Below, piece by piece: positions 9,202 through 51,898 of a DNA stretch of 52,953 nucleotides. The notes beneath the pieces are model-generated. The model searched no databases, had not been told where the DNA came from, and saw only the letters and a program-made list of their open reading frames with translations. Location of the stretch: the NCBI GenBank assembly GCA_040755095.1, contig JBFMBH010000011.1:1-52953 (forward strand), written 5' to 3'. How positions within the stretch are numbered: the first letter of the stretch is position 1; each line of letters starts with the position of its first letter. The DNA is from Thermodesulfobacteriota bacterium. GTDB lineage: Bacteria > Desulfobacterota > Desulfobulbia > Desulfobulbales > JBFMBH01. The translations under genes and the position numbers were made by a program.

Positions 9202-9779
9202 AGGACGAGCGCCAGCGGGCGCTGGTGGCCATCACCGGCGCCTCCGGCAGCCTTTATGCCCTGCATGTGCTGGCCCAGTTGGCCCGGCTGGGCGTCGAGG
9301 TGCACGGCATCGTCTCCGAGGCCGGCCGCCAGGTGCTGGCCCTGGAGACGGATCGGGAGCCGGCTTCCCTGGCGGAAGTGGCGGTGTGGCACCGGGTGAC
9401 GGATCTCGCGGCGGCGCCGGCCAGCGGCTCCAGCCGCTATGCGGCCATGATCGTGGTGCCCTGCTCCATGGGCACCCTGGCGGCCATCGCCGGCGGCCTG
9501 TCCCGGAACCTCATCCACCGGGCCGCTGACGTCACGCTCAAGGAGCGGCGGCCCCTGGTGCTGGCGGTCCGGGAGAGTCCGGTGGGCCGCATCCACCTTG
9601 CGAACATGCTGGCGGCCCATGATGCCGGCGCCATCATCTGCCCGGCCATGCCCGCCTTCTACCATCGGCCTGCCTCCCTGGACGAGATGGCAGGCTACTT
9701 CGCCGGCCGGCTGTGCGAGCTGGCCGGTTTCCCGATTCCGGACCTGGCGCGGTGGCGAGGTGTCGACAATGGTGAATAA
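9198..9779 (+). CDS. ubiX: flavin prenyltransferase UbiX
   Basis: A 193-residue flavoprotein with the UbiX/Pad1 signatures GASGSLYALHVL, VPCSMGTLAAIAGG and CPAMPAFYH. UbiX makes prenylated FMN from dimethylallyl phosphate and FMN for a UbiD-type decarboxylase. In futalosine-pathway bacteria the UbiD/UbiX pair decarboxylates the 1,4-dihydroxy-6-naphthoate intermediate. The UbiD partner is not in this window. The gene is coupled to ubiE by an ATGA overlap and overlaps the next gene by 11 bases. Confidence 0.93.
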   Translation: MKDERQRALVAITGASGSLYALHVLAQLARLGVEVHGIVSEAGRQVLALETDREPASLAEVAVWHRVTDLAAAPASGSSRYAAMIVVPCSMGTLAAIAGGLSRNLIHRAADVTLKERRPLVLAVRESPVGRIHLANMLAAHDAGAIICPAMPAFYHRPASLDEMAGYFAGRLCELAGFPIPDLARWRGVDNGE

Positions 9780-10620
9780 GATCCGGACCCTTCTTGAGAT
9801 GATCAAGTTCGAGCACACGGTCTTTGCCCTGCCTTTTGCCTTCATGGGCGCCTTTCTGGCCGCCCGGGGTGTGCCGGACAGCCGGATCGCCGGCTGGGTG
9901 CTCCTGGCCATGGTGGGCGCCCGCACCGCTGCCATGGGCTTCAACCGCATCGTTGACCTGCCCTTCGACCGGGACAACCCGCGCACCGCCAATCGGGCCC
10001 TGGCCTCCGGCGCGGTGCGGCCCTGGGAGGCCTGGCTCATGGTGGTCGTCGCCGGCAGCCTCTTCTTCCTGGCCTGCCACCGGCTCAATCCCCTGACTCT
10101 CCTGGTGTCGCCGGTGATGATGGCCTTTGTTTTGGGCTACTCCTATACCAAGCGCTTCACCTGGCTGTGCCACGTGGTCCTGGGCATTGCCCTGAGTCTG
10201 TCGCCCCTGGGCGGCTGGATAGCGGTGACCGGCAGTCTGGCCGGCTTTCCGGCTGTGCTTTCCCTGGGGGTGCTTTTCTGGGTGGCCGGCTTCGATACCG
10301 TCTACGCCTGCCTGGACGCCGACTTCGACCGCAGTCGCGGGCTTTGCAGCCTGCCGGCCCGTTTCGGCCGCCGCCGGGCCTTCCAGCTGGCGGTGCTCTT
10401 CCACGTCATCGCCTTCGCCCTCTTCGTCAGCACCGGCCTGGTGGCCGGCCTCAACGCCTTCTATTACCTGGGCATCGCCGCTACCGCTGCGGCCCTTTTC
10501 TACCAGCACATCGTGGTCAACCCCCGGGACCTGTCCCGCATCCAGCTCTCCTTTTTCACCTTGAACGGCGCCATCAGCCTGACCCTGTTCGTGGCCACCT
10601 GGCTGGCCCTGGTCGTGTGA
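9769..10620 (+). CDS. mqnP: UbiA-family prenyltransferase (MqnP-like)
   Basis: A 283-residue polytopic membrane protein with about eight hydrophobic segments and the two aspartate-rich UbiA motifs, NRIVDLPFDRDNPRT and DADFDRSRG. These bind Mg-polyprenyl diphosphate. In this operon it should attach the isoprenoid chain to the dihydroxynaphthoate ring in the inner membrane. ATG 9769 is inside the end of ubiX. The longer reading frame from 9598 is antisense-like overlap with ubiX and is rejected. It is the last gene of the menaquinone cluster. Confidence 0.88.
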   Translation: MVNKIRTLLEMIKFEHTVFALPFAFMGAFLAARGVPDSRIAGWVLLAMVGARTAAMGFNRIVDLPFDRDNPRTANRALASGAVRPWEAWLMVVVAGSLFFLACHRLNPLTLLVSPVMMAFVLGYSYTKRFTWLCHVVLGIALSLSPLGGWIAVTGSLAGFPAVLSLGVLFWVAGFDTVYACLDADFDRSRGLCSLPARFGRRRAFQLAVLFHVIAFALFVSTGLVAGLNAFYYLGIAATAAALFYQHIVVNPRDLSRIQLSFFTLNGAISLTLFVATWLALVV

Positions 10621-21474: not shown

Positions 21475-21795
21475 TCACACGCAGCCGGTCGGCTTGGGCA
21501 GGCCAGCCATCTTGCAGGCTCCCTTGCCCGGTCCCGACGGGAACAGCTCGTAGATCCTCTTGAGCGGGAAGCCGGTGGTCTTGGACAGGATCCGGACCAT
21601 GGGGGCGATACCGTTCTTCTTGTAATAGTCCTGCAGGGTGTTGATGATGTTCCAGTGCTCGTCGGTCAGGGCCTCGATGCCTTCGATGTGCTTGACATAG
21701 TCAACCCATTCCGTGCACCACTCTTCCATGCCCTTGGCCAGGAAGCCGTCCTCGTCGACTTCAAACGTCTTGCCACCAAATTCGATGGTTGCCAT
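21475..21795 (-). CDS. dsrC: DsrC, sulfur-carrier protein of dissimilatory sulfur metabolism
   Basis: A 106-residue protein of the DsrC/TusE family. The flexible C-terminal arm KGACKMAGLPKPTGCV has both conserved cysteines, C94 and C105, separated by ten residues. This marks true DsrC rather than TusE-like homologues that keep only the last one. DsrC receives sulfur from dissimilatory sulfite reductase DsrAB as a trisulfide, which is reduced by the membrane complex DsrMKJOP. The gene has its own promoter and a strong terminator, so it is monocistronic, as is usual for this highly expressed gene. A GGAGGAGG ribosome site lies upstream. No dsrAB is in the window. Confidence 0.96.
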   Translation of the reverse strand: MATIEFGGKTFEVDEDGFLAKGMEEWCTEWVDYVKHIEGIEALTDEHWNIINTLQDYYKKNGIAPMVRILSKTTGFPLKRIYELFPSGPGKGACKMAGLPKPTGCV

Positions 21796-33828: not shown

Positions 33829-36048
33829 ATGCTCGGCGGGTCTGGGACTCGGCTAGCCAGCATTCGCAGTCGACTGAGGCCATCGCTTGGCGTTACGTTG
33901 CGGTGTATGCCTTTTCAGTGGGGACGTCTTTCCCCAGGGCTCACATCCCTCCTGGTCGCCGTTCTGCTGTCGGCCTCCCCTGCGGACCTCCAGGCTGCAT
34001 CTCCTCCCGCCATCTACCCCTTCCCGAGCCATGGCGGCGGCAGCGGTCTTCTGGACATGCCCTCCGCCCGCCTGCTGCCGGACTGGACGGTACGGGCCGG
34101 CTACACCTGGGCGGATCCGTACGCCACCTATGCCCTGAGCGCCGCGCTTATGCCGTGGTTGGAGGTGAGCGGTCGGCTCACCGAGGTGTCCGGGCTCGGC
34201 ACCCGTTTCGGAGCCGGGTATGGCGACTACAAGGACAAGGCCATCGATGTCAAGGTGCGCCTTCTGGAGGAATCCGGCGGCCATCCTGCCGTGGCCATCG
34301 GCGCTACCGACATCCACGGCACCGGCCTGTTCACCTCGCGCTATCTGGTCCTCTCGCGCCGCCTTGGTGCCCTGGACCTGACCCTGGGCGCTGGCCAGGG
34401 CATCCTGGCCGGCGATCAGACCAAGGGGGCCGGCTCGGCAGGTCCGGCCTCGGAAGATGCGGCGGTGGACTTCCTCACCAGCGGAGAAACCCACACCCGC
34501 CTCTTCGGCGGCGCCGAGCTTCACCTCACCGAGGAGCTGTCGGCGGTGGGTGAGTATTCCAGCCTGGAGTATGAGACCATGTTCGGCCTGGCCCAGGTGA
34601 GCGACCCCGGCAGCAGTCCGCTGAACTTCGGGCTGCGCTACCGCCTGACGCCGCACCTGCTCATGTCCTTGACCGCCCTGCGGGGTGAGCGTCTGGGCTG
34701 GTCCCTGGCCGGCATCTGGCCCTTCGAGCCGGAAGGGATGTTGCCCTGGAAGAAACAGCCGTACTGGGTGGCCGACGAGGAGCTCCGCCGCCGGGCGGCG
34801 TCGGCGGGCAACGATGAGCTGGCGCTGTTCATCCGGGAGGAGGTGGTGGCGGAGCACTTCTCCAACGTCCAGGTGGCGGTGAGCGACCGGGCGGTCTGGC
34901 TGGAGATCGAGAACCCCACCTATCTTTCGGACGTCAAGGCCATGGGGCGGGCGGCCCGCGCCACCCTGTCCATGCTGCCGGAGCGGATCGAGTGGCTCTC
35001 GGTGAGCCTCAAGACCAAGAATATCATTTTGGTGACCATGACCATGGGCCGCCAGGACTTTGCGGCCTTTCTCGACAACCGGCTCGACGCGGCAACACTG
35101 CTGACGTTTAGTGGGTTGACCACCGACGGCGGGGAGGCGCGGCGGATGTTTTTCTGGCAGGAGCCCAGTGCCTCGCCGCTGACGCCGGAAGGAGGCTCCA
35201 GCCTGCTGCGCTACGGCGTGCGTCCCAGCTGGCGCACCCTGCTCAATGATCCTTCCGGATTTTTGAAGAACAACATCGGGCTCGTTTGGCACGCCTCTCT
35301 TTTTCCCTGGACGGGCGTTTTGGGCCGGCTGGCTGTGCATACCCCCCTTTACAACAACGTCAGTACCAGCAACCGGGTGGAGGAGCCCAATCCGTCCCGT
35401 ACCGATTTCGTCTCCTACATGGCGCAGACCGATCTGCGGGTGGAGACCCTGGCCTTCGACCAGGTCGTGGACCTGCCTGGCCACTGGCTGGCCCGGGGGG
35501 CGCTCGGCTTCTTCGAGTCAGCCTACGGTGGCTTCGGGGCCGAGATCTTCCGGCTGGCGCCGTCAGGGCGCTGGGGGGCGGGCCTGGAGTCGGAGTGGGT
35601 CTGGAAACGGGGGTTGGATCGTGAATTCCACCTGCAAGGCGCCCAGGACTATCGCACCCTTTTTTGCAATCTCTACGGGGCGCTGCTGCCGGCCTACGGG
35701 GTTGACCTGGGGCTGAAGGTGGGCCGGTTCCTGGCCGGTGACTGGGGTGGCCGTCTGGATGTCAGCCGCACCTTCCGCCACTTCACCGTGGGCGTCTGGT
35801 ACTCGATCACCGATACCAGCGGCTTTGTCGCTTCGTACAACCGGGGCTACCACGACAAGGGCATCTACCTCACCATCCCCTTCAGCCTCTTTACCGACCG
35901 GGATGTGCCGCGCAAGCTCAGCTACTCGTTGCGGCCCTGGACCAGGGATCCAGGCCAGACGGTGGGCCAGATCAACGCTCTTTACCCCATGGCCAACCGA
36001 GGCAACCCCGACACCCTGAGCCGTCACCTCGACGAGCTGCGGGACTGA
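33829..36048 (+). CDS. YjbH-like outer-membrane exopolysaccharide protein
   Basis: A protein of up to 739 residues from ATG 33829 with GGCGGAGG just upstream. An internal ATG at 33907 starts a better signal peptide (ending SPADLQA). The mature part is beta-rich with alternating aromatic residues, as in YjbH/DUF940 proteins (E. coli YjbH is about 700 residues). The opening GLLDMPSARLLPDWTVRAGY fits, and so does the C-terminal FVASYNRGYHDKGIYLTIPF. YjbH is an outer-membrane beta-barrel protein linked to polysaccharide export. It follows the YjbE-like gene, but the yjbF and yjbG genes are missing. Confidence 0.8.
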   Translation: MLGGSGTRLASIRSRLRPSLGVTLRCMPFQWGRLSPGLTSLLVAVLLSASPADLQAASPPAIYPFPSHGGGSGLLDMPSARLLPDWTVRAGYTWADPYATYALSAALMPWLEVSGRLTEVSGLGTRFGAGYGDYKDKAIDVKVRLLEESGGHPAVAIGATDIHGTGLFTSRYLVLSRRLGALDLTLGAGQGILAGDQTKGAGSAGPASEDAAVDFLTSGETHTRLFGGAELHLTEELSAVGEYSSLEYETMFGLAQVSDPGSSPLNFGLRYRLTPHLLMSLTALRGERLGWSLAGIWPFEPEGMLPWKKQPYWVADEELRRRAASAGNDELALFIREEVVAEHFSNVQVAVSDRAVWLEIENPTYLSDVKAMGRAARATLSMLPERIEWLSVSLKTKNIILVTMTMGRQDFAAFLDNRLDAATLLTFSGLTTDGGEARRMFFWQEPSASPLTPEGGSSLLRYGVRPSWRTLLNDPSGFLKNNIGLVWHASLFPWTGVLGRLAVHTPLYNNVSTSNRVEEPNPSRTDFVSYMAQTDLRVETLAFDQVVDLPGHWLARGALGFFESAYGGFGAEIFRLAPSGRWGAGLESEWVWKRGLDREFHLQGAQDYRTLFCNLYGALLPAYGVDLGLKVGRFLAGDWGGRLDVSRTFRHFTVGVWYSITDTSGFVASYNRGYHDKGIYLTIPFSLFTDRDVPRKLSYSLRPWTRDPGQTVGQINALYPMANRGNPDTLSRHLDELRD

Positions 36049-36079: not shown

Positions 36080-36108
36080 TTGACAGCCCGGGGGAAAAGC
36101 GGTTTTCT
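36080..36108 (+). promoter_or_regulatory. putative promoter of the UDP-xylose synthase-like gene
   Basis: TTGACA (36080-36085) is followed after 17 bp by TTTTCT (36103-36108), about 36 bases upstream of the ATG at 36144. The -10 is weak. Confidence 0.45.
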
Positions 36109-36143
36109 TGACCTCTTGTTCACTCCGTTCTTCCGGGAGCCCC

Positions 36144-37145
36144 ATGACCAGCTATCCTGCCTCCTCACCGCCCTATTCCTCCCTGGCCCGCAAGCGGGTG
36201 CTGATCACCGGTGGGGCCGGTTTTCTCGGCAGCCATCTCTGTGAGCGCCTGCTGGCCCGGGGCTGCGAGGTGCTGTGTCTGGACAATTTCTTTACCGGCA
36301 CCAAGGCCAATGTGGAGCATCTGCTCGCCAGCCCCTATTTCGAGATCATCCGCCACGACATCTGCCAGCCGCTCTTTGTCGAGGCGGATGAGATCTACAA
36401 CCTGGCCTGCCCAGCCTCGCCCATCCATTACCAGTACAACCCGGTGCACACCACCAAGACCTCGGTGATGGGCGCCTTGAACATGCTGGGCCTGGCCAAG
36501 CGGGTGCGGGCCCGGATCCTGCAAGCTTCCACCTCCGAGGTGTACGGTGACCCGGCTGTCCACCCCCAGCGGGAGGACTACTGGGGCAACGTCAACCCCA
36601 TCGGCGTCCGCTCCTGCTACGACGAGGGCAAGCGCTGTGCCGAGACCCTTTTCTTCGATTACCGGCGCCAGCATGACCTGACCATCAAGGTGGCCCGCAT
36701 CTTCAACACCTATGGGCCGCGGATGCATCCCCATGATGGCCGGGTGGTGAGCAACTTCATCGTCCAGGCCCTCCAGGGCCAGGACCTCACCGTTTATGGT
36801 GACGGCCGTCAGACCCGCTCCTTCTGCTATGTGGACGATCTGGTGGAGGGCCTCATCCGGCTCATGGCCACGGACCATGCCGTGACCGGCCCGGTCAACC
36901 TGGGCAATCCGGCCGAGTTCACCATTCTGGAATTGGCCGAAAAGGTGCTGGCCATGACCGGCAGCCGGGGGCGGATCGTCTTCCGGCCCCTGCCCAGCGA
37001 CGATCCCCTACAGCGGCGGCCGGACATCAGCCAGGCCCGGGCAGAGCTGGATTGGCAGCCGCAGGTCGATCTCGACCGCGGTCTCGTGCGGACAATCGAC
37101 TACTTCCGCTGCCTGCTGGCCGAAGGAACAGCGACGGTCCCATGA
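36144..37145 (+). CDS. UDP-glucuronate decarboxylase (UDP-xylose synthase)-like epimerase
   Basis: A 333-residue extended SDR enzyme. The NAD motif is [12 protein letters not shown], and the active site contains [10 protein letters not shown] with Y/K in SCYDEGKR. The segment [19 protein letters not shown] is that of UXS, which oxidises and decarboxylates UDP-glucuronate to UDP-xylose. It would supply a pentose for the exopolysaccharide. ATG 36144 has GGGAG upstream. The stop overlaps the next ATG (ATGA). A dTDP-glucose dehydratase is less likely. Confidence 0.85.
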
Positions 37146-38282: not shown

Positions 38283-38702
38283 ATGGCGGATCTGGTTCAG
38301 CTCGGCCGGCAGCTCGCGGAGTACTTTTCCTTCCGGCCGGAGGTGTTGGCGGTCTACGTGTTCGGTTCGGTGGCCGCGGGCCGGGAGCGTCCTGGCAGTG
38401 ACGTGGACATCGCCGTCCTGCTCCAGTCCGCAAGGAACCTGGATCGCAAGGCCCTTCTGGACCAGTGGCTGCCTGACCTTTGCCGGTTGCTGCGGCGGGA
38501 TGTGGACATCCTCGTGCTCAACGACGCCTCGGACGTGGCCCGCATGCAGGTGTTTCGCCGAGGCCGGCTGGTTCTGGCCGTCGATCCCGGCCAGCTGGCC
38601 CGCTTCCGGATGACCAGCCTGGTGCAGTACCTGGATTTTCTGCCCCATCTGAGGCGGATGCAGGCGCGGCTCATGGACAGGTTTGCCAGCCATGGTGGAT
38701 AG
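38283..38702 (+). CDS. mntA: MntA-type nucleotidyltransferase antitoxin (pair 1)
   Basis: A 139-residue minimal nucleotidyltransferase. The catalytic GS-x10-DxD motif is exact (FGSVAAGRERPGSDVDIAV), and the third acidic residue lies in DVDILVLN. In characterised MntA/HepT systems this protein adds AMP to a tyrosine of the HEPN toxin and so neutralises it. ATG 38283 begins the conserved core; the longer frame upstream is noise. The stop lies inside the following hepT gene (11-base overlap), which is the usual coupling. Confidence 0.88.
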   Translation: MADLVQLGRQLAEYFSFRPEVLAVYVFGSVAAGRERPGSDVDIAVLLQSARNLDRKALLDQWLPDLCRLLRRDVDILVLNDASDVARMQVFRRGRLVLAVDPGQLARFRMTSLVQYLDFLPHLRRMQARLMDRFASHGG

Positions 38703-39108
38703 GGATCTCGTCTGCGCCAAGGCCGGAGCCATCGCCCGGCATCTCGACCGGGTCCGCAGCAAGCGGGACGTGCCCCTGGACGTTTTTGTGGCTGACCTGG
38801 ACCGTCAGGAAAGCGTCCTTTTCAACTTGCAAATGGCGGTGCAGGGGTGCATCGACCTGGCAGCCCACCTGGTGAGCGACCTGGATCTTGGGGTGGCCGG
38901 CAGCACGAGTGAGCTCTTCTATCTGTTGGAGCGGGAGGGGATCCTCGATCCGGCCCTCGTGGAGCAGATGGTACGGGCCGTGGGGTTCCGCAACCTGCTG
39001 GTGCACGAATACGCTCGCATCGACCTGGGCCAAGTCCATCGCATTGCCCAGGACGTGGTCGCCACCCTCGAGAGTTTTCTGGCCGTCATTGGCGGGCGTT
39101 GGCTGTGA
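38692..39108 (+). CDS. hepT: HepT-type HEPN toxin (pair 1)
   Basis: A 138-residue all-helical HEPN (DUF86) protein. The RNase/toxin motif R-x4-H-x-Y is intact in RNLLVHEY, including the tyrosine that MntA modifies. HEPN toxins of this group cut RNA when unmodified. It starts inside the mntA gene, giving stoichiometric coupled translation. It ends 18 bases before the broken second pair. Confidence 0.9.
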   Translation: MVDRDLVCAKAGAIARHLDRVRSKRDVPLDVFVADLDRQESVLFNLQMAVQGCIDLAAHLVSDLDLGVAGSTSELFYLLEREGILDPALVEQMVRAVGFRNLLVHEYARIDLGQVHRIAQDVVATLESFLAVIGGRWL

Positions 39109-41907: not shown

Positions 41908-41984
41908 CTGTTCGCCCATCGGATATCGGCGTTGCGAAAAACTCGGCCGCGACAGGCACGAAGCCTTGGATGAGGCTATGCGTC

Positions 41985-42413
41985 ATGGGTATTCCAGGGA
42001 AGGCCTACCGTGCGACCCGGGAGGAGAAGACCAGGATCCGTGCCGCCCTTGCCGCGGCCCTGGAGGCGCGGCCGGAGATCCGCTTCGCCTGGTTGCACGG
42101 CTCGTTCCTGGGCGATCTGGCCTTTCACGATATCGACGTCGCGGTCATCACGGCTGGCCGGCCGGACAACCCGTTGCTCCAGGCCGCCCAGCTGGCCGGA
42201 GCCCTCGGCGAGCTGGCCGCTTATCCGGTGGACGTGCGCATCGTCAACGAGGCGCCAGTGTCCTTTCTGTTCTCGGTGATCCGCGGCGAAATCCTCGTGG
42301 ACCGGGACCCGGAGGAGCGCTGCCGTTTTGCGGAGGAGGTGGCCAGGCGCTACCTGGACATCAAGCCGATTTTAGTGCAGGCCACCCGGGAGGCCTTCGG
42401 CCGTGCCCCTTGA
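41985..42413 (+). CDS. mntA: MntA-type nucleotidyltransferase antitoxin (pair 3)
   Basis: A 142-residue minimal nucleotidyltransferase with HGSFLGDLAFHDIDVAV. The spacing is GS-x8-DxD, two residues shorter than the usual GS-x10-DxD. A later acidic residue is in YPVDVRIVN. ATG 41985 has a GAGG about nine bases upstream; ATG 41970 in frame is an alternative. Its 3' end overlaps the HepT gene by 11 bases. It should modify and silence the partner toxin, as in pair 1. Confidence 0.82.
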   Translation: MGIPGKAYRATREEKTRIRAALAAALEARPEIRFAWLHGSFLGDLAFHDIDVAVITAGRPDNPLLQAAQLAGALGELAAYPVDVRIVNEAPVSFLFSVIRGEILVDRDPEERCRFAEEVARRYLDIKPILVQATREAFGRAP

Positions 42414-42819
42414 CCCGGAGCTGGTCCGGACCCGATGCCAGGAGATCACCGACTCCGTTGCCCGCCTGCAACGGATCGGTGTCGAGCCGCTGGAGCGCTT
42501 CCTGGCCGATGCGGATCTTCAGGACATCGCCTGCTACCGGCTGCAGATCGCCATTGAGGCGGCGCTGGCCCTCTGTTACCATGTTGCGGCCCGCCGGCTG
42601 CGTATCGTGCCCGAGGACTATGCCGCCTGCTTTCGCGCTTTGGCTGTCCACGGTCTTCTGCCCGGGGACCTGGCTGAGCGGCTGCAAAGAATGGCGCGGC
42701 TCCGCAACCTCCTGGTGCACATGTACTGGAAGGTGGACTACCGGATGATTCGTGATATCATCCAGCGGCACCTTGGCGATCTGGCGCAGTTCGTGGACCT
42801 GATCGTTGACCTGGGCTGA
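42403..42819 (+). CDS. hepT: HepT-type HEPN toxin (pair 3)
   Basis: A 138-residue HEPN/DUF86 protein starting at GTG 42403 inside the mntA gene. The R-x4-H-x-Y motif is intact (RNLLVHMYW), so the RNase-type active site and modifiable tyrosine are both kept. Overall sequence differs clearly from HepT of pair 1, so the two pairs are not a recent duplication. Confidence 0.88.
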   Translation: MPLDPELVRTRCQEITDSVARLQRIGVEPLERFLADADLQDIACYRLQIAIEAALALCYHVAARRLRIVPEDYAACFRALAVHGLLPGDLAERLQRMARLRNLLVHMYWKVDYRMIRDIIQRHLGDLAQFVDLIVDLG

Positions 42820-42981: not shown

Positions 42982-45900
42982 GTGTTGAGCTTGAAGCACG
43001 CGATCGTATCTTCATGGGGGAGCCGACTAGCCACCCTCGTCGTGGCATGGCTGCTACTGGCCGCCAGCCCCGCAGGGGCCCAGGAGGGCGCTGCCGCCAT
43101 CGCCCAGTCACCGGCGGTACAGGCCGCGGTGGCCTCCGGCCAAGTGACCCCGGCCCAGGTGCAGCAGGGCCTGCAGATGCTGGAAAGCGGGCAGATCAGC
43201 CCCGAACAGGCGGCAGCTGCTCGGGAGCGGTTGGCCCACGGCACCCTCACCCCCGCCGAGATCGAGACCGGTCGCCGGCTCCTGGAAGGCGCGCGGCAGT
43301 CCGAGACCGCGAGCGGGGCGGCTCCCGATGCCACGGGCGGCGAAGCCGGACCGGAGCAGCAGCGGGCGCCGGAGGGCATCGTAGCCGGGCAGCCGGCCTT
43401 TGCCCAGCGGATGTTCGGTCCGGCTGCCAAGGGTCTCACCATCTTCGGCCAGGATCTCTTCTCCCGGCCGGCCGAGACCTTCTCGCCCCTGCGGGATGTG
43501 CCGGTGTCCGAGGACTATGTGGTCGGCCCTGGCGACGCCATCAAGGTGATCATGTGGGGCCGCCTGGAAGGCAGCTACGAGCTGGAGGTGACCCCGGAGG
43601 GGGAGATCAACTTCCCGAAGCTGGGCACCCTGAGTGTCGCTGGCCTCACCTTGCGGGAGGTCAAGGCCCTCATCAGCCAGCAGGCGGAGAGCATCACCGG
43701 CGTGTCGGTGAGCGTCTCCATGGGCAAGCTGCGCACCATCCAGGTCTTCGTTCTGGGCGAAGTGAAGCGGCCGGGACTGTACTCCGTGAGCGCCCTGGCC
43801 ACGGCGGTGCACGCCTTGCTCGCCGCCGGCGGTCCTACGCCCCTGGGCTCCCTGCGGGGCCTGGAGCTGAAGCGCAACGGCGAGATTACCAGCCGCATCG
43901 ATCTCTACCGCTTCCTCCAGCGGGGCGACATCAGTGACGACACCCGTCTCATGGCAGGCGACGTGGTGTTTGTTCCGGCGGTGGGCCCCCTGGTGGCGGT
44001 GACCGGCAACGTCAAGCGGCCAGGCATCTACGAGATGCAAGGTGAGCGAACCCTGCAGGGGGTGCTGGCCCTGGCTGGCGGCCTGGCGCCCCGGGCCTAC
44101 AACCAGCGGCTGCAGATCGAGCGGGCCTTCGCCAACCAGCAGGAGATCATCCTCGACATCCCGTACGACACGGTGGAGAAGCAGCAGCCGGTGCCCGTGG
44201 CGGACGGCGACGTGGTCAAGGTCTTCTCCCTCATGCCGGTTGCCGCCAACGCCGTGACCCTGATCGGCAACGTGGCCCGGCCGGGCGAGTACGCCTTCCG
44301 GCCCGGCCTGCGGGTGCGGGATGTGCTGCCGGACGTGGAGAGCCTGCTGCCAGACGCCCATTACTCGTATGCCCTCATCAAGCGCTACCACTTGCAGGAC
44401 ATGAGCACCGAGCTCATCCCTTTCGACTTGGGTGCTCTCCTGGCAGGGGTGCCGGGCAGCCACAACATCGCCCTCCAGCCCATGGATGAGATCCATGTCT
44501 TTTCGAAATGGGCCTTCGAAGACAAGCCCAAGGCCCTTATCGAGGGGGAGGTGCGGAAGCCCGGCAGCTACCCGGTGGAGCGGATGCGGGTCAAGGATCT
44601 CATCCAGAAAGCCGGCAGCCTCACCGAGACCGCCTATCTTGCCAAGGCCGAGCTGATCCGCACCGACGAGGCCCAGAGACAACACACCCTGTACTTCGAC
44701 GTTGCCGCTGCCCTGGCCGATGATCCCCAGCACAACTTGGCCGTGCAGAACCTGGATCGGGTGCGGATCCATTCGGTGTGGGAGGAGCGCTGGCAGGAAT
44801 TCGCCAGCATCGATGGCGAGATCAAGGAGCCCAAGGCCTATCCCCTCACCCAGGGCATGCGGGTCAAGGACTTGGTCTTCAAGGCCGGCGGCTTCACTCG
44901 GGATGCCTCCATGACCACCGGCCATCTCTATCGTACCGACTGGCGCACCAAGGAGGTGACCATCCTCACCTTCGAGCTGGACAAGGCCCTGGCCGGCGAT
45001 CCGGACTACAACCTCATCCTCCAGGATTTGGACCGGGTGGTGGTTCACAGTGTCTGGGAATACAAGGAGCACCATACCGTGCAGGCCAAGGGCATGCTGA
45101 ACAAGCCCGGCTCCTATCCCTATGCCGCCAATATGACCGTCCGCGACCTGGTACTGGTGGCCGGCAGCCCCCGAGAGGCTGCCTATCTGGACCGCGCCGA
45201 GATCGTCCGCTACCGGATCGTCGACGGCCGCCAGGTGGAGACATCCCTCGTCGAGATCAACCTCCGCCAGGCCCTGGCGGGCGACTTGCGGCACAATATC
45301 GCCTTGCAGCCCTGGGACGTGCTCACCGTCAAACGGATCCCGGAGTGGGGCGAGACCGCCGAGGTGCGGATCTCTGGGGAGGTGAATTTCCCAGGCTCCT
45401 ACACCATCCGCAAAGGGGAACGATTGAGTTCCCTCATCGAGCGGGCGGGCGGCTTCACGCCCCTGGCCTACTTCCGGGGCGCCCGCTTTACCCGGGAATC
45501 GGCCCGGGTCCAGCAGCAGGAGCGCATGAGTGAGCTGGTGGATCGCCTGGCCGGTGAGCTGGCCCGGGGCGCCACCCAGGAACTCACCGAGACCCTGACC
45601 AAAGAGGATATCGAGGCCGAGAAGCAGACCATGGACGCCCAGCGCACCCTCATCGAGCGGCTGCGCAGGATCAAGGCCACCGGCCGTGTTGTCATGAAGC
45701 TGGCCCCCGGACCGGGGTTTGCGGACAGCGAGTTTGACGTGCTCCTGGAAGACGGCGACGATCTGCATGTACCGCCGGTCCGCCGTACTGTGGCCGTCCT
45801 GGGCGAGGTCTACAACCCCACCACCCTGATTTGCGGCCTGGAGGGCACCACCATTACCGTGGCCCTGGGCCAGACCGGCGGGCCCACCAAGTACGCCGAA

Positions 45901-46137
45901 GAGGACGAAATCTATGTCATCCAGGCCGACGGCTCGGTGCATGGCAAGAGACAACGCGGCTACGTGACTACCGTCTTCTCCAGCTTCGAGGACCGGCCTC
46001 TCTATCCCGGCGACACCCTGGTGGTACCACCGAAGCTCATCCACACCAGCCTGAAGCGGGACATCAAGGACGTCACCTCCATCCTCTATGAGATGGCGGT
46101 GGCGGCTGGCATTGTCATCACTCAGGTGTTCGATTGA
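42982..46137 (+). CDS. multi-SLBB polysaccharide export outer-membrane protein
   Basis: A protein of about 1051 residues, much longer than Wza (about 380). A signal peptide (ending SPAGAQ) precedes a Gln/Ala-rich spacer, then the poly-export domain (YVVGPGDAIKVIMWG near residue 182). Eight SLBB-type repeats follow, opening G-x2-x-x-P-G-x-Y near residues 259, 341, 429, 522, 612, 704, 799 and 942. It probably forms the outer-membrane export channel of the exopolysaccharide. Start codons GTG 42982, TTG 42985 and TTG 42991 are all possible; the last has the best-spaced GGAG. wzz follows. Confidence 0.88.
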   Translation: MLSLKHAIVSSWGSRLATLVVAWLLLAASPAGAQEGAAAIAQSPAVQAAVASGQVTPAQVQQGLQMLESGQISPEQAAAARERLAHGTLTPAEIETGRRLLEGARQSETASGAAPDATGGEAGPEQQRAPEGIVAGQPAFAQRMFGPAAKGLTIFGQDLFSRPAETFSPLRDVPVSEDYVVGPGDAIKVIMWGRLEGSYELEVTPEGEINFPKLGTLSVAGLTLREVKALISQQAESITGVSVSVSMGKLRTIQVFVLGEVKRPGLYSVSALATAVHALLAAGGPTPLGSLRGLELKRNGEITSRIDLYRFLQRGDISDDTRLMAGDVVFVPAVGPLVAVTGNVKRPGIYEMQGERTLQGVLALAGGLAPRAYNQRLQIERAFANQQEIILDIPYDTVEKQQPVPVADGDVVKVFSLMPVAANAVTLIGNVARPGEYAFRPGLRVRDVLPDVESLLPDAHYSYALIKRYHLQDMSTELIPFDLGALLAGVPGSHNIALQPMDEIHVFSKWAFEDKPKALIEGEVRKPGSYPVERMRVKDLIQKAGSLTETAYLAKAELIRTDEAQRQHTLYFDVAAALADDPQHNLAVQNLDRVRIHSVWEERWQEFASIDGEIKEPKAYPLTQGMRVKDLVFKAGGFTRDASMTTGHLYRTDWRTKEVTILTFELDKALAGDPDYNLILQDLDRVVVHSVWEYKEHHTVQAKGMLNKPGSYPYAANMTVRDLVLVAGSPREAAYLDRAEIVRYRIVDGRQVETSLVEINLRQALAGDLRHNIALQPWDVLTVKRIPEWGETAEVRISGEVNFPGSYTIRKGERLSSLIERAGGFTPLAYFRGARFTRESARVQQQERMSELVDRLAGELARGATQELTETLTKEDIEAEKQTMDAQRTLIERLRRIKATGRVVMKLAPGPGFADSEFDVLLEDGDDLHVPPVRRTVAVLGEVYNPTTLICGLEGTTITVALGQTGGPTKYAEEDEIYVIQADGSVHGKRQRGYVTTVFSSFEDRPLYPGDTLVVPPKLIHTSLKRDIKDVTSILYEMAVAAGIVITQVFD

Positions 46138-46179
46138 TGCAGCCAGCGCCATTGCTATCCTGGCCCGGTGGTCCTGCCC

Positions 46180-47142
46180 ATGAATGATCCGGTTGCCACA
46201 GCACTTGTGGATTCAACGGCACCAGCGGGCGGTGTGGGGGAGATCAACCTCCTGGACCTTCTGTTGGTGATCCTCGCCGCCAGGCGCATCATCCTTGGCT
46301 TGGCTCTGGCGGCCGGGGCTGCCGCGGCTGCTGTCGCCTTCGGACTGCTCCCGAATGTCTATCGCTCGGAGGCGACCCTGACCGTGCTTCCAGGCACGAA
46401 GCAGACGGACCTGGCCGCGGCAGGCGGTCTCGGTGGCATGGCTACCGACCTGTTCGGTGGGGGCGGCAGCAAGGAACTGGCCCGGCTCGAGGTCACGGCG
46501 AAAAGTCGAGAGCTGGCGCGCCGGGTGATCGCCGAGCACGACCTGATGCCCGTTCTGTTTCCAAAGCTGTGGGATCCCCAAGTCAAGACATGGCGGGGGC
46601 AGAAGATACCCACCGAGCAGGATGGCATCAGACGGTTGATGGCCATGCGCTCGGTGACCACGGAGGTCAAGAAGGGGGTGCTGGTGCTGGCCGTCGAGCA
46701 TCGGGATCCAGTCATGGCTAAGGCGATGGTGGAGTGGTACCTGGGCGGACTGAGCGAGATCCTTCGAGAGGCGGTCCTGCGGGAGGCCATCGACAACCAG
46801 CGATTCTTTCAGGAGCAGCTGCAGCATACGGCCGATGCTCTGTTGCGGGACAAGCTGGCCGGCCTGCTCGCCAAGGAGATAGAGCGGGAGACCTTCGCCC
46901 GTGCCCAACACTACTACAGCTTCGAGGTGGTGGACCCGCCGTTGCAGATAGACGAGGACAAGAAGGTGCGTCCGAATCGGCCGCTTATTTGTGTCATGGC
47001 GGTGGTGGTCGCCTTGGCCTTTGGGGTGATCGCAGCTTTTCTGCGGGAATTCGGGCGGAGTATGAAGGCCAACGCTGACCCGGCGCAACTGGCTCGTCTG
47101 CGGCAGGCTCTGCCCTGGGGCACCCGCTGGTTGGCCTCCTGA
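46180..47142 (+). CDS. Wzz-like polysaccharide chain-length determinant
   Basis: About 320 residues with two transmembrane helices, near residues 33-60 and 270-290, flanking a periplasmic helical domain. This is the Wzz/polysaccharide co-polymerase topology. The YRSEATLTVLPG segment after the first helix and the PNRPLICVMAVVVALAFGVIAAFL second helix (given here in two pieces: PNRPLICVMAV, VVALAFGVIAAFL) are typical. There is no cytoplasmic kinase domain. It acts with the polymerase and the SLBB exporter to set chain length. ATG 46180 was chosen; GTG 46168 is an alternative. Confidence 0.82.
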   Translation: MNDPVATALVDSTAPAGGVGEINLLDLLLVILAARRIILGLALAAGAAAAAVAFGLLPNVYRSEATLTVLPGTKQTDLAAAGGLGGMATDLFGGGGSKELARLEVTAKSRELARRVIAEHDLMPVLFPKLWDPQVKTWRGQKIPTEQDGIRRLMAMRSVTTEVKKGVLVLAVEHRDPVMAKAMVEWYLGGLSEILREAVLREAIDNQRFFQEQLQHTADALLRDKLAGLLAKEIERETFARAQHYYSFEVVDPPLQIDEDKKVRPNRPLICVMAVVVALAFGVIAAFLREFGRSMKANADPAQLARLRQALPWGTRWLAS

Positions 47143-47198
47143 TCGCCTCGATTCTGAAGCAGCCTCTGTACCCTGGGGATAGAGCGGAGGAGGGTTCC

Positions 47199-48254
47199 TT
47201 GGCACATCCACTCGCGGGATCGCGAATCTTCATCACCGGTGCTTGCGGTACGGTAGGCTCGGAGCTGATCCGGCAGCTGCTGGGCAATCCCTTGTACGAT
47301 CCGGCTGAGGTTATCGGCATCGACAACAACGAAAGTGAGCTCTTCTTCCTGGATCAGCGGTATCTCGCCGATTCGCGCGCCAGTTTCTTCCTCGGGGACA
47401 TCCGGGACCGGGATAAGTTGTATCGCCGCATGCGCGGAATTGACATCGTCTTCCACGCTGCGGCCCTTAAGCATGTGATTCTTTGTGAACGTTCCCCTTT
47501 CGAGGCGGTGCAAACCAACATCCTGGGGGTTCAAAATATCATCGCCGCCGCCTTCGAGAACCGGGTCCGCAAGGTGATCTTCACGAGTTCCGACAAGGCG
47601 GTCAACCCCACCAATGTCATGGGCACCTCCAAGCTTATGGGCGAGCGACTTATGACCGCGGCTAACAGTAGCCGGGGCGAAGGCGGCCCAGTCTTCACCT
47701 CCACCCGCTTCGGCAATGTCCTCGGCTCGCGGGGCTCGGTGATACCCATCTTCCGGCAGCAGATCGCCCGGGGAGGGCCAGTCACCTTGACCCACCGGGA
47801 GATGACCCGCTTCGTCATGAGCATTGAGGAGGCGGTGCGCCTGGTGATTGATTCCGTGGAGCTGGCGCGGGGTGGTGAGGTGTTCATCACCAAGATGCCA
47901 GTGGTCACCATCGAGGACTTGGCTGCGGTGATGATCGAGGAACTGGCCCCCCAGCATGGGCGCGACCCCCGAACCATCGAGGTGTCGGAGATCGGCGTCA
48001 AGCCTGGCGAGAAGCTCTATGAGGAGCTCATGAACGGCGAGGAGACCCGTCGCGCTGTGGAACTGGGTCGCTATTTCGTGGTGCTGCCGGCGTTTCGTGG
48101 CCTGTACGAAGGCATCGGCTACGACTACCCTGACGTGCTCTCCACCACCGTCACCAACCCCTACGTCTCCTCCCGGGAGACGGCCATCGACCGGGAGACG
48201 GTTCGCTCGTTCTTGCGGCAGAACGGCCTGCTCGGGCAAGACAACGAGTCCTGA
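47199..48254 (+). CDS. sugar-nucleotide 4,6-dehydratase/epimerase (PseB/CapD-type SDR)
   Basis: A 351-residue extended SDR. NAD motif TGACGTVGSELIRQLL, the dehydratase-type TSSDKAVNPTNVMGTSK with catalytic lysine, and FGNVLGSRGSVIPIF place it with UDP-GlcNAc 4,6-dehydratases such as PseB, FlaA1 and CapD. It should make a 4-keto-6-deoxy UDP sugar for the polymer. TTG 47199 lies behind GGAGGAGGG. sqdB follows with only three bases between. Confidence 0.88.
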   Translation: MAHPLAGSRIFITGACGTVGSELIRQLLGNPLYDPAEVIGIDNNESELFFLDQRYLADSRASFFLGDIRDRDKLYRRMRGIDIVFHAAALKHVILCERSPFEAVQTNILGVQNIIAAAFENRVRKVIFTSSDKAVNPTNVMGTSKLMGERLMTAANSSRGEGGPVFTSTRFGNVLGSRGSVIPIFRQQIARGGPVTLTHREMTRFVMSIEEAVRLVIDSVELARGGEVFITKMPVVTIEDLAAVMIEELAPQHGRDPRTIEVSEIGVKPGEKLYEELMNGEETRRAVELGRYFVVLPAFRGLYEGIGYDYPDVLSTTVTNPYVSSRETAIDRETVRSFLRQNGLLGQDNES

Positions 48255-48257
48255 GGT

Positions 48258-49451
48258 ATGACACCGACCGCTTTGGAGCAACAACCAGGCAGGAGCGGAG
48301 GCATGCGCGTCCTGATCCTGGGCGGGGATGGCTATCTTGGCTGGCCGACCGCCATGCATTTGTCGGCGCAGGGTTGCGAGGTGGGGGTGGTGGACAGCTA
48401 CCTGCGCCGCCGCCTGGCCCGGGAAGAGGACGTAGAGCCGCTCTACGAGGTGCCGAACCTCCAAGCCCGGATTCGGCGCTGGTCCGGTTATTCCGGCCGG
48501 ACGCTGTGGGCTGCAGTCGGTGACCTTTTGGATTGGGAATTCGTAGCCCGGGTCTTCCGGGAATTCCAGCCGGAGGCGATCGTGCACTATGCCGAGCAGC
48601 CGTCGGCGCCCTATTCCATGCTCCGCCGCCAGGCTGCGGACCTGACTCTTCACAACAACTTGGGAGTGACGGCCAACGTCATCCATGCCATTCGGGAGTT
48701 CTGCCCCCAGGTCCATCTCATCAAGCTGGGAACCATGGGCGAGTATGGCACGCCGGACATCGACATCGAGGAGGGTTGGCTTCAGATCCACCACCAGGGG
48801 CGCAGTGACCGATTTCTGTTTCCGCGCCAGGCAGGCAGTCTGTACCACTCCACCAAGATCATGGACACCGACCTCCTGTGGTTCTATGTCCGGATCTGGG
48901 GGCTGCGGGTGACCGATCTCATGCAGGGACCGGTCTACGGCGTGTTCACGGACGAGAACGAAGGGGACGAGGCTCTTCTACCCTTTTTCAGCTACGACGA
49001 GCTGTTCGGCACCGTCCTCAACCGTTTCGTGGTCCAGGCCGTCGCTGGGGTACCGCTTACCGTCTACGGCAAGGGTGGCCAGACCCGGGGCTACCTCAAC
49101 ATCCGGGACACCTTGAACTGTGTGCGTCTGTCCCTGGAGAATCCGCCTGGGGCCGGGGAGCTCCGCATCTTCAACCAGTTCACCGAAACCTTCACGGTGA
49201 ATGACCTTGCCCAGCGGGTGCAGCGGGTGGGTCAAGCCATGGGGCTGCCGGTGACTGTGCAGCATCTGCCCAACCCCCGGGTGGAGAAGGAGGAGCACTA
49301 CTACAACCCCCGGCACACGGGCCTGCTGGAGCTGGGCCTCCAGCCGCACTTCCTCACCGATGCCGTGCTCCAACAGCTGCTGGCCTTTGTCGTCTGCCAT
49401 CAGGATCGGATCGACCACCACAAGATCTTCCGGGGGACCACATGGGCCTGA
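48258..49451 (+). CDS. sqdB: UDP-sulfoquinovose synthase SqdB
   Basis: A 397-residue SDR enzyme with nearly every SqdB/SQD1 block: LILGGDGYLGWPTAMHLS, EQPSAPYSM, KLGTMGEYGTPDIDIEEG, the catalytic YHSTK, TDLMQGPVYGV, VYGKGGQTRGYLNIRDT, NQFTETFTVNDLA and NPRVEKEEHYYN. SqdB makes UDP-sulfoquinovose from UDP-glucose and sulfite. It adds a C-S bond sugar rarely seen outside sulfolipid synthesis. No sqdX or sqdD follows; the neighbours are polysaccharide genes, so a sulfoquinovose-containing polymer is likely. ATG 48258 starts a short extension; ATG 48303 (MRVLILGG) is the alternative. Confidence 0.92.
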   Translation: MTPTALEQQPGRSGGMRVLILGGDGYLGWPTAMHLSAQGCEVGVVDSYLRRRLAREEDVEPLYEVPNLQARIRRWSGYSGRTLWAAVGDLLDWEFVARVFREFQPEAIVHYAEQPSAPYSMLRRQAADLTLHNNLGVTANVIHAIREFCPQVHLIKLGTMGEYGTPDIDIEEGWLQIHHQGRSDRFLFPRQAGSLYHSTKIMDTDLLWFYVRIWGLRVTDLMQGPVYGVFTDENEGDEALLPFFSYDELFGTVLNRFVVQAVAGVPLTVYGKGGQTRGYLNIRDTLNCVRLSLENPPGAGELRIFNQFTETFTVNDLAQRVQRVGQAMGLPVTVQHLPNPRVEKEEHYYNPRHTGLLELGLQPHFLTDAVLQQLLAFVVCHQDRIDHHKIFRGTTWA

Positions 49452-49506
49452 GGTGGGGAATTCTCGGGGTGCCCTGCCATTCCCTGCGACCGGCTGCTGC
49501 CGCCCG

Positions 49507-50898
49507 ATGACCGTTGTGGACCGGGACGGGCAGCAACGAGGCGTCCACCGGGGGCTGGCCAGGATTCGAGCTGCCCTCGCAGAGCCGTTCGTGCGGGGCA
49601 GCGTCATCACCTTTGCCTGCCACGGGCTGGGAATAGTCCTCGGCTATCTGTTCGCACTTCTTATTAGTAGGCGTCTGGGAGCAGAGGCGATGGGATTGTT
49701 CACCATCGCCTACACCGTGCTCAACATTGCCACCGTATTGGGTCGTCTGGGGCTGGATATCGCCTTGCTGCGCTTCGTGGCGGAATTTTCGGCCAGGGAA
49801 CAGGGCGAGCAGGTGCGGCGTTTTCTGGCGGGCGCGGTAGCGGTGGCCCTGCCCTGCTCGTTGGGCGTGGGGCTGTTGCTGTTCCTGGCCGCCGGCCCGT
49901 TGGCCCGGGATCTCTTCAGGAAGCCGGAGCTGGAGGCGAGTCTGCGGGAAGTGGCGTGCCTGGTGCCGGTCTTGGCCCTCTTCTTCTTGCAGACCGAGAG
50001 CCTGCGGGGCCTGCGGCGGATCGGCGCCTACGGGTTTCTCCAGAACGCCTCCTTGTACCTGTTTTCATGTCTGGCGGCCTTTTTGCTCCTGGAGGGCCTG
50101 GACTGGGAGGGTGCACAGGTACCGATCCAGGCCCTGGGAGCAGCCATCGTCTTGGCGACGGTTATCGGCGGTTTGCTGCTCCACCGCCAGTTGGGGCTGG
50201 CCGGCCTGTACCGTGGAGGCATGGCCGCTATTCGTCCCATGCTGGCGGTATCGCTGCCCCTCATGACCTCCAAGATCATGTTCTTCGTCATGGGGTGGGT
50301 GGACATTCTCCTGCTGGGGGTGTTCCGGACGGGGGCCGAGGTGGGGATCTACAACATCGCCGTGCGCCTGTCTTCGGTAGTGGGCATCGTACTCCTGGTC
50401 ATCAACGTCGTGGTGGCACCGCGGTACGCCCAGCTCCATACTCTGGGGGATAGGGACGGCTTCGTCGGGCTGGTATGGCGCACATCCCGGGTGGTCTTCA
50501 TCTCGTCGTTGCCACTCCTCCTCCTGCTCCTCCTCCTGCCCGGGCCGGTGCTGGGCGTTTTCGGGGAGGAGTTCCGGCAGGGCAGCCAGATTCTGGCCCT
50601 GCTCGCCCTGGGGGAGTTCATCAACGCCAACTGCGGCTCCGTTGGCATCATCCTGCAGATGACCGGCCGGGAGCGGCTGTTCCGGAATATCGCTTGCGCA
50701 GCCACTGTTCTCAATCTGGGCCTCAACTCCGTTTTCATCCCCCGGTTTGGCATCTACGGGGCGGCGGTGACCAACGTGGCTACCGTCTCGTCGTGGAATC
50801 TCCTGGCGGTCTGGCTGGTCTGGCGGGAGTTCGGAGTGCTCACTCCGTATGTTCCGGGCTTGGAAAGGCTGCTCCGGAGGCACCGAGCCGGCCAATGA
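49507..50898 (+). CDS. Wzx-type polysaccharide flippase
   Basis: A 463-residue integral membrane protein with about 12-14 hydrophobic helices, of the polysaccharide biosynthesis/MVF flippase superfamily. The N-terminal RGSVITFACHGLGIVLGYLF begins the first helix and ALLISRRLGAEAMGLF follows, with YNIAVRLSSVVGIV later, all characteristic. It would flip the lipid-linked repeat unit to the periplasm. ATG 49507 is the first sensible start. The frame upstream overlaps sqdB out of phase and is discarded. Confidence 0.88.
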   Translation: MTVVDRDGQQRGVHRGLARIRAALAEPFVRGSVITFACHGLGIVLGYLFALLISRRLGAEAMGLFTIAYTVLNIATVLGRLGLDIALLRFVAEFSAREQGEQVRRFLAGAVAVALPCSLGVGLLLFLAAGPLARDLFRKPELEASLREVACLVPVLALFFLQTESLRGLRRIGAYGFLQNASLYLFSCLAAFLLLEGLDWEGAQVPIQALGAAIVLATVIGGLLLHRQLGLAGLYRGGMAAIRPMLAVSLPLMTSKIMFFVMGWVDILLLGVFRTGAEVGIYNIAVRLSSVVGIVLLVINVVVAPRYAQLHTLGDRDGFVGLVWRTSRVVFISSLPLLLLLLLLPGPVLGVFGEEFRQGSQILALLALGEFINANCGSVGIILQMTGRERLFRNIACAATVLNLGLNSVFIPRFGIYGAAVTNVATVSSWNLLAVWLVWREFGVLTPYVPGLERLLRRHRAGQ

Positions 50899-50917
50899 AC
50901 CGGGAGATCCGCCGCCT

Positions 50918-51898
50918 ATGACCCTGAACCCTGCAAGCACCTTCCGTTCCGGGGCCCGACCCTGTCCGGCCTTTCTCGTGGTGGGCGCCCAGCGCGCTGG
51001 AACCACCTCTCTCTACATGTGCCTCAAGGAGCACCCCCAGCTCTTCCTGCCCAGGATCAAGGAGCCGGCCTTCTTCGCTTTCCATGACGGCGAGATCGCC
51101 TCCCGCTACGGCCGCTATCTGGTCAACACCCCCTTTGTCACCGACTGGCAGCGGTATCAGGAGCTGTTCGCAGAGGCCGGCCCAGCCAGGTTGACCGGAG
51201 AGTGCTCCCCGGAGTATCTCTTCTTCCATGACAAGGCCATCGCCACCATCCGGCAACATGTTGCCGACTGGCAGAAGCTGAAGATCATCGCCATTCTTCG
51301 TCACCCCGTGGATCGTGCTTTGTCTCACTTTCAATTCGTGGCCCAGACCTGTACCGAGGAACTGGATTTCCTGGCCGCTCTGAAGGCCGAGGATGCCCGC
51401 CTGGCCGAGGGCCGTTATCCCATGCGCTATGGCTACAAGACGGTCGGCTGTTACAGTCGCCAGCTGCAGGCCTATGTACAGACGTTTTCCCAGGTGAAGG
51501 TGGTGCTGTTCGAGGATTTTGTGGCCCGACCTGACCTGGTGCTTGGGGAGGTCTACCGGTTCCTGGGCGTTGACGACAGCTTCCGCCAGGAGCTGGCGGT
51601 GAACAACGCCAGCGGTGTCTGCCGCTATCCACTTCTGAAGCCGTTCTACGAGCTGCTGTTCGGGGACGATAACCTGATGCGCAACGCCGCCCGGCATCTC
51701 CTCAGTGACGAGGCGCGGGTCAGGATCCGTAACCACCTCTTCCGCTGGCTGTCCAAGAACGACCGGGCCATGTCCCGGGTCGCCTACGAGCATCTGACCG
51801 CTGCCTTCGCCTTCGAGCTCCGGGCGCTGTGCGCCCTGCTCGACGGATTGGGTGTGGACTACAGCAGCTGGACCCAGCGCCACCGGCTAGCGGCGTGA
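50918..51898 (+). CDS. PAPS-dependent sulfotransferase
   Basis: A 326-residue sulfotransferase. The 5'-phosphosulfate loop is AQRAGTTSLYMCLKEHP near residue 25, and the 3'-phosphate binding motif is ILRHPVDRALSHF near residue 128. An intervening catalytic-type acidic/His pattern is less clear. It transfers sulfate from PAPS to a sugar hydroxyl, so the exopolysaccharide or a lipid-linked precursor is the likely acceptor. ATG 50918 has GGGAG 11 bases upstream. It lies 19 bases after the flippase. Confidence 0.88.
   Translation: MTLNPASTFRSGARPCPAFLVVGAQRAGTTSLYMCLKEHPQLFLPRIKEPAFFAFHDGEIASRYGRYLVNTPFVTDWQRYQELFAEAGPARLTGECSPEYLFFHDKAIATIRQHVADWQKLKIIAILRHPVDRALSHFQFVAQTCTEELDFLAALKAEDARLAEGRYPMRYGYKTVGCYSRQLQAYVQTFSQVKVVLFEDFVARPDLVLGEVYRFLGVDDSFRQELAVNNASGVCRYPLLKPFYELLFGDDNLMRNAARHLLSDEARVRIRNHLFRWLSKNDRAMSRVAYEHLTAAFAFELRALCALLDGLGVDYSSWTQRHRLAA

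Follow-up and report, generated by a model that had tools for sequence, protein, structure and literature searches.

The uridine diphosphate (UDP)-sulfoquinovose synthase SQD1 of Arabidopsis (1i24, 1qrr and 1i2b) operates in the sulfolipid pathway, as does the SqdB-SqdD system of Sinorhizobium meliloti and other Proteobacteria, in which an SqdD-like glycosyltransferase gene adjoins the S. meliloti sqdB. Agl3 of Sulfolobus acidocaldarius is an SqdB homologue that provides sulfoquinovose for N-glycans and so serves a surface glycan, not a lipid; both SQD1 and Agl3 pass through a 4-keto-5,6-ene, and the 5,6-ene is released when sulfite is lacking (PMC4388408). Among the UDP-N-acetylglucosamine (UDP-GlcNAc) dehydratases, Pen of the Bacillus thuringiensis pseudaminic acid pathway, which is followed there by Pal, yields UDP-6-deoxy-GlcNAc-5,6-ene, and the retaining 4,6-dehydratases PglF and WbpM yield a retained 4-keto-6-deoxy sugar (PMC8987622). 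Here, we analysed a gene of the SqdB/SQD1 family and the dehydratase gene directly upstream of it in a window of 52,953 nucleotides, which is positions 1-52953 of contig C11 from a Thermodesulfobacteriota genome (4.5 Mb, 255 contigs); the last gene of the window is cut at the contig end.

The SqdB-like gene and the dehydratase gene form a conserved two-gene cassette in surface-polysaccharide loci. Judged by homology and predicted fold, the window gene is an SqdB, but it falls into a subfamily of its own in which an active-site residue is exchanged, with proline (proline-type) at the site of SQD1 Arg101, which is arginine in most classical SqdBs (arginine-type). SQD1 belongs to the sulfolipid pathway, whereas the window gene is paired with a dehydratase gene in exopolysaccharide (EPS) loci. 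The cassette most likely makes a single unusual nucleotide sugar, modified at C6 and possibly sulfonated, which is probably destined for a polymer and not for a lipid.

Pairing and distribution of the cassette

When neighbourhoods were clustered for the 80 nearest SqdB relatives in other genomes, a PF02719 dehydratase gene adjoined the SqdB homologue in most of them. For a separate pairing test, 395 Desulfobacterota genomes were searched once with the SqdB-like protein and once with its partner. Of the 23 partner genes with 54% identity or more, 22 adjoin an SqdB homologue there, the lone exception lying on a 5.8-kb contig, and 22 of the 25 SqdB homologues of at least 56% identity adjoin a partner. 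Pairing ends below 48% identity for partner homologues and below 55% for SqdB homologues, except for a second SqdB located two genes from the cassette in locus L116. Across all collections, the partner is found on the same strand within three genes of 81 of the 101 subfamily members; in most of these it comes immediately before the SqdB gene, at a distance of at most some tens of bases (3 in the window). The distances of the SqdB-like and partner proteins are also correlated (Mantel r 0.44, 0/2000 permutations). Records carrying the labels of many phyla yielded about 100 such cassettes.

Counted over all loci, proline-type genes have a same-strand partner within three genes in 83 of 112 cases and SqdD in none, whereas arginine-type genes have the partner in 0 of 22 and SqdD nearby in 6 of 22, a contrast whose Fisher values ignore relatedness. 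The original prediction, which read the locus as a polysaccharide rather than a sulfolipid operon, agrees with these counts; however, it overlooked the dehydratase as an almost obligatory partner. This partnership makes a common pathway for the two enzymes probable. The literature searched on sulfoquinovose and on SqdB in bacterial exopolysaccharides held no account of this cassette.

About one-fifth of the cassettes (L011, L014, L023 and others) have a third gene beside SqdB, encoding a 4-epimerase-like short-chain dehydrogenase/reductase (SDR) with an SSGAPxG motif, in which the acid/base pair is absent in the members read; acting on UDP-sulfoquinovose, such an enzyme would give a sulfofucose donor. 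Clustering had lumped a window SDR (36108-37145) with these downstream epimerase-like proteins, an assignment that was rejected, as its sequence resembles UDP-glucuronate decarboxylase. That gene follows the YjbH-type gene and might supply a further sugar of the same polymer by the UDP-xylose route. In two loci, proline-type SqdB homologues adjoin a gene for a B12-binding radical SAM protein of about 700 amino acids (aa; L126 8672-10810 and L116 10636-12729). Both clusters hold NeuB and NeuC, and that of L126 also a 2-hydroxyacid dehydrogenase-like gene, perhaps representing a modified nonulosonic acid pathway; a similar candidate gene for a 746-aa protein occurs in L176.

The SqdB-like enzyme and its dehydratase partner

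The predicted model of the SqdB-like protein (mean predicted local distance difference test score, pLDDT, 88.7) superimposes on the SQD1 crystal structures with Z 58.2 and a root-mean-square deviation of 1.3 Å over 382 residues, the next family following at Z 34. Pal was considered as its nearest relative and rejected, falling among common SDRs at Z 33. The homology to SQD1 extends over the full length, and the alignment shows that Thr145, Met146, Glu148, Tyr149, Ser180, Tyr182 and Lys186 of SQD1, comprising the Thr/Tyr/Lys triad and the Glu148/Tyr149 pair, are all conserved. Compared by motifs, GTMGEYGTP and YHxxK are common to the window protein and Agl3. Nevertheless, the window protein has YHSTK for the YHLSK of SQD1 and QGPVYG for its QGVVYG, and Pro115 takes the place of the Arg of AEQRSAP (SQD1 Arg101). 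The same site is Arg in SQD1, Agl3 and 14 of 15 classical SqdBs, and Pro in each of the 92 relatives with 54% identity or more. In Agl3 this Arg is required, its R101A mutant being inactive (the published primer encodes AEQ[A]SAP; PMC4388408). The earlier statement that SqdB is unmistakable at this locus therefore goes too far: full-length homology and fold agree with it, but the protein belongs to a separate subfamily and has an exchange at a residue that is essential in Agl3.

The window's proline-type subfamily is recovered as a clade by IQ-TREE (support 100/99) and is placed between two groups of arginine-type proteins, SQD1 being in one of them. Since proline at the Arg101 site also occurs in other branches, including the L113 protein (62% identity to SQD1), whose sister in L114 has Arg, the exchange is by itself no proof of another function. 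S. meliloti SqdB, an arginine-type protein of the same family, shares 39% identity with the window protein. The cut-off of the NCBIfam model NF041015 (575 bits) was considered as a function test and rejected: the window protein scores 424.5 bits, and the cut-off does not separate function because S. meliloti SqdB reaches just 332. The host genome contains no second SqdB homologue at E<=1e-40. Elsewhere in the family, L165 encodes an 853-aa SqdB homologue fused to a class V aminotransferase domain (7769-10330), with Cys at the Arg101 site, and L166 and L167 encode similar proteins of 824-834 aa; these genomes belong to the same taxonomic order as Microbulbifer.

Among solved structures, that of B. 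thuringiensis Pen (6bwc) is closest to the partner (41% identity, 281 bits, Z 42.6), with FlaA1 level in fold (Z 42.0), while PglF ranks lower (168 bits, Z 32). The partner is a soluble single-domain protein, which sets it apart from PglF/WbpM. In its motif SSDKAVNPTNVMGTSK, Met replaces the catalytic Tyr, and Met occupies this site in all 79 aligned partners, so the Tyr of the Pen-type DKxnYx3K motif is lacking. On the other hand, the partners have the DK and Mx3K elements of the retaining dehydratases (DKxnMx3K), whose motif is given as TDKxnMx3K (PMC8987622 Table 1); they mostly read SDK, and Thr (TDK) is found in 4 of 79. Because the families of both neighbouring enzymes handle C5-C6 unsaturated UDP-sugars, one shared pathway is suggested.

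Candidate products of the cassette

Our best explanation, which is quite plausible but held tentatively, is that the cassette (47199-49451) supplies one unusual, C6-sulfonated nucleotide sugar to a surface polysaccharide exported by the Wzx/Wzy route. We infer that the two enzymes act in sequence. The Pen/PglF-like upstream enzyme would oxidise C4 of a UDP-sugar, probably UDP-GlcNAc, and eliminate the C6 hydroxyl; the SqdB-like enzyme would then take the same sugar through C4 oxidation, attack of sulfite as the nucleophile on the C5-C6 enone and C4 reduction. Such a route would end in a hexose or hexosamine in UDP-activated form with a sulfonate at C6, which could enter the repeat unit, be flipped by Wzx and be polymerised by Wzy, with O-sulfate added separately by the sulfotransferase.

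Sulfite would be at hand. The original prediction had assumed it to be available to SqdB, and both dsrA and DsrC were found in the host genome, so that sulfite is a core metabolite of the host. In two loci of other genomes, a reductase for 3'-phosphoadenosine or adenosine 5'-phosphosulfate, (P)APS, stands in the operon itself. The one in L028 is a PAPS reductase, whose gene lies upstream and shares about 30 bases with the partner gene on the same strand; the one in L049 (Motilimonas pumila) is of the APS-reductase type and opens a tight run of (P)APS reductase, SDR, partner, SqdB and SDR. Both reductases score above the curated phosphoadenylyl-sulfate reductase cut-off, have the ECGLH motif and are separated from their neighbours by a few bases or overlap them, and both loci fall within the window's own subclade. 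Motilimonas has another CysH-motif gene elsewhere in its genome, the operon reductase being a paralogue. A sulfate reducer would not need such a gene in the operon for its sulfite supply.

Several points weigh against sulfonation by this cassette. The Arg that Agl3 requires is Pro in every subfamily member, and the YHxTK and QGPVYG motifs depart from those of the tested enzymes. A retaining Met-type 4,6-dehydratase would yield a 4-keto-6-deoxy sugar, which is not an obvious sulfite acceptor. About one-fifth of the subfamily has no partner nearby, in some cases merely through contig ends, and just 2 of the 112 proline-type loci have a (P)APS reductase as a neighbour. We know of no measured product for the proline-type subfamily.

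A first alternative, a real possibility if on balance improbable, is a split dehydratase resembling Pen/Pal, in which two SDRs would act in sequence on a 5,6-unsaturated UDP-GlcNAc and no sulfonation would take place: the 5,6-ene would be turned into a 4-keto-6-deoxy (C5-epimerised) sugar and on to 6-deoxy or amino sugars for the polymer. The Arg-to-Pro exchange at a site essential in Agl3, the closeness of the partner to Pen and the release of the 5,6-ene by SqdB/Agl3 without sulfite (PMC4388408) are in line with it, as is a divergent proline-type gene (L125 6144-7292) upstream of genes for LegC aminotransferase, NeuC and NeuB, a place in which a nonulosonic-acid 4,6-dehydratase would be expected. 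Compared with Pen, the partner has Met in place of the Tyr. Against this alternative, the second enzyme is SqdB-like, not Pal-like, being far nearer to SQD1 (Z 58) than to Pal. LegC-type genes are near just a minority of cassettes, and the (P)APS reductases in two operons of the closest subclade also speak against it.

Within the sulfonating explanation, a narrower version, which we regard as doubtful, dedicates the two enzymes of the cassette to making an amino sugar nucleotide sulfonated at C6 (e.g., UDP-6-sulfo-6-deoxy-GlcNAc) for surface polymers across many bacterial phyla, which could become a sulfofucose-type sugar where the frequent downstream 4-epimerase-like SDR is present. If this held, both the sugar, as a constituent of bacterial polymers, and the pathway would be of a kind for which no description was found.

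Alternatively, the two enzymes could make separate donors for the same repeat unit, the SqdB-like enzyme producing UDP-sulfoquinovose from UDP-glucose (UDP-Glc) and the dehydratase independently producing a 6-deoxy amino sugar such as N-acetylquinovosamine. Every other catalytic residue is kept, the subfamily sits between arginine-type groups, the pair L113 and L114 differs at the site despite close kinship, and some proline-type proteins (L127, L128 and L170) have no partner, all of which would fit; it would, however, be surprising for independent enzymes to remain adjacent in such a range of unrelated polymers, and we consider this explanation unlikely. Ordinary synthesis of sulfolipid (sulfoquinovosyl diacylglycerol), with the gene by chance inside an EPS operon, is very improbable: SqdX might be among the 18 GT4-type genes of the genome, but SqdD has zero matches in it at E<=0.01 and stands beside none of the 112 proline-type genes, the EPS setting is conserved, and there is no other SqdB homologue at the above threshold.

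Over the sulfonating and the two-donor explanations together, a C6-sulfonated product has a probability somewhat over one half, and the balance tips slightly towards a polymer sugar with C6 sulfonation. Sulfoquinovose as the specific product, which the original prediction had proposed, ranks well below that and is unproven; as stated it lacks support, the Agl3-essential Arg being Pro in the window protein and all close relatives. In two Rhodobacteraceae plasmids (L149 7049-8955 and L151 7001-10764), an arginine-type SqdB gene lies near a phosphoadenylyl-sulfate reductase gene, and L151 also has an annotated sulfotransferase together with glycosyltransferases. These are candidate sulfoquinovose polymer loci without SqdD, and perhaps a better case for the proposed sulfoquinovose polymer than the window.

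Annotation by homology only can label such genes as UDP-sulfoquinovose synthase and thereby ascribe sulfolipid or sulfoquinovose to many bacteria that are not photosynthetic. Because of the separate subfamily, the changed active-site residue and the fixed partner, these annotations need a test. If sulfite is indeed added by the cassette, sulfonated surface polymers would have a widespread source in it, which bears on the sulfonate cycle, on the biofilms of sulfate reducers and on the origin of rare sulfosugars such as sulfofucose, for which no biosynthetic pathway is known (PMC12421959).

Setting of the cassette in the window

The genes around the cassette are collected in Table 1. Genes were called at the loci by a codon-score caller in place of the longest open reading frame (ORF), and an antisense gene at 46914-48848 (minus strand) was discarded as a false call of the longest-ORF method. 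The neighbours named in the original prediction, a dehydratase, a Wzx flippase, a PAPS-dependent sulfotransferase and a Wzy-like protein, are all present, as indicated by Pfam, motifs and topology, and the absence of SqdX and SqdD among them holds for the window genes scanned. Wzx, Wzz and the SLBB export protein of a Wzx/Wzy pathway were recognised by Pfam; the truncated Wzy-like protein gave zero Pfam or NCBIfam matches, its class being given by the topology of the cut sequence alone. A scan of roughly two dozen window proteins, which did not extend to every small ORF, gave no match to a glycosyltransferase domain. Other contigs bearing glycosyltransferase genes (C172, C157 and others) were checked for the continuation of Wzy and the absent glycosyltransferases, and gave no clear join.

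Table 1 Features of the window around the SqdB-like gene
Feature	Position	Strand	Evidence
DsrC	21475-21795	-	
YjbH exopolysaccharide protein, upstream part of EPS region	33829-36048	+	PF06082, 421 bits
Outer-membrane polysaccharide export protein (Wza), repeated SLBB domains	42982-46137	+	PF02563, PF10531, PF22461; TIGR03027 over cut-off
Wzz/GNVR-type chain-length protein	46168-47142	+	PF02706
PF02719 nucleotide-sugar dehydratase (DEH), soluble, cassette partner	47199-48254	+	PF02719, 324 bits; no transmembrane segment
SqdB/SQD1-family enzyme, proline-type subfamily, 397 aa, full-length	48258-49451	+	461 bits, 52% identity to SQD1
Pro115 codon, site of SQD1 Arg101 (Agl3 "R101")	48600-48602	+	Alignment
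Wzx/MOP-type (MatE) flippase; true start probably ~49507	49360-50898	+	PF01943, PF13440, PF01554; 9 hydrophobic segments
PAPS-dependent sulfotransferase; true start probably ~50915	50849-51898	+	PF13469, PF00685; 5'-phosphosulfate-binding GAQRAGTT, 3'-phosphate-binding RHPVDRALSHF
Wzy-like polytopic membrane protein, runs off contig end	51912-52952+	+	7 hydrophobic segments in 347 aa

O-sulfate groups had also been predicted for the polymer. As the sulfotransferase has both PAPS motifs and the genome encodes an ATP-sulfurylase/APS-kinase fusion (PAPS synthase), a sulfated polymer is plausible. The sulfated capsule cluster of Vibrio sp. KMM 8419 (PMC11641403) likewise has a sulfotransferase in a polysaccharide cluster together with PAPS synthesis genes; its abstract gives UDP-Glc and dTDP-rhamnose (dTDP-Rha) as nucleotide sugars and names no SqdB-type gene. 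Because a sulfotransferase of the two types in Table 1 occurs within six genes in 8 of the 112 proline-type loci, it is an occasional, not a fixed, companion of the cassette. Farther upstream, a HepT-like gene (38683-39108, PF01934) and a stretch at 41970-42819 that reads by eye as a nucleotidyltransferase-like/HepT-like pair could be toxin-antitoxin modules around the EPS operon.

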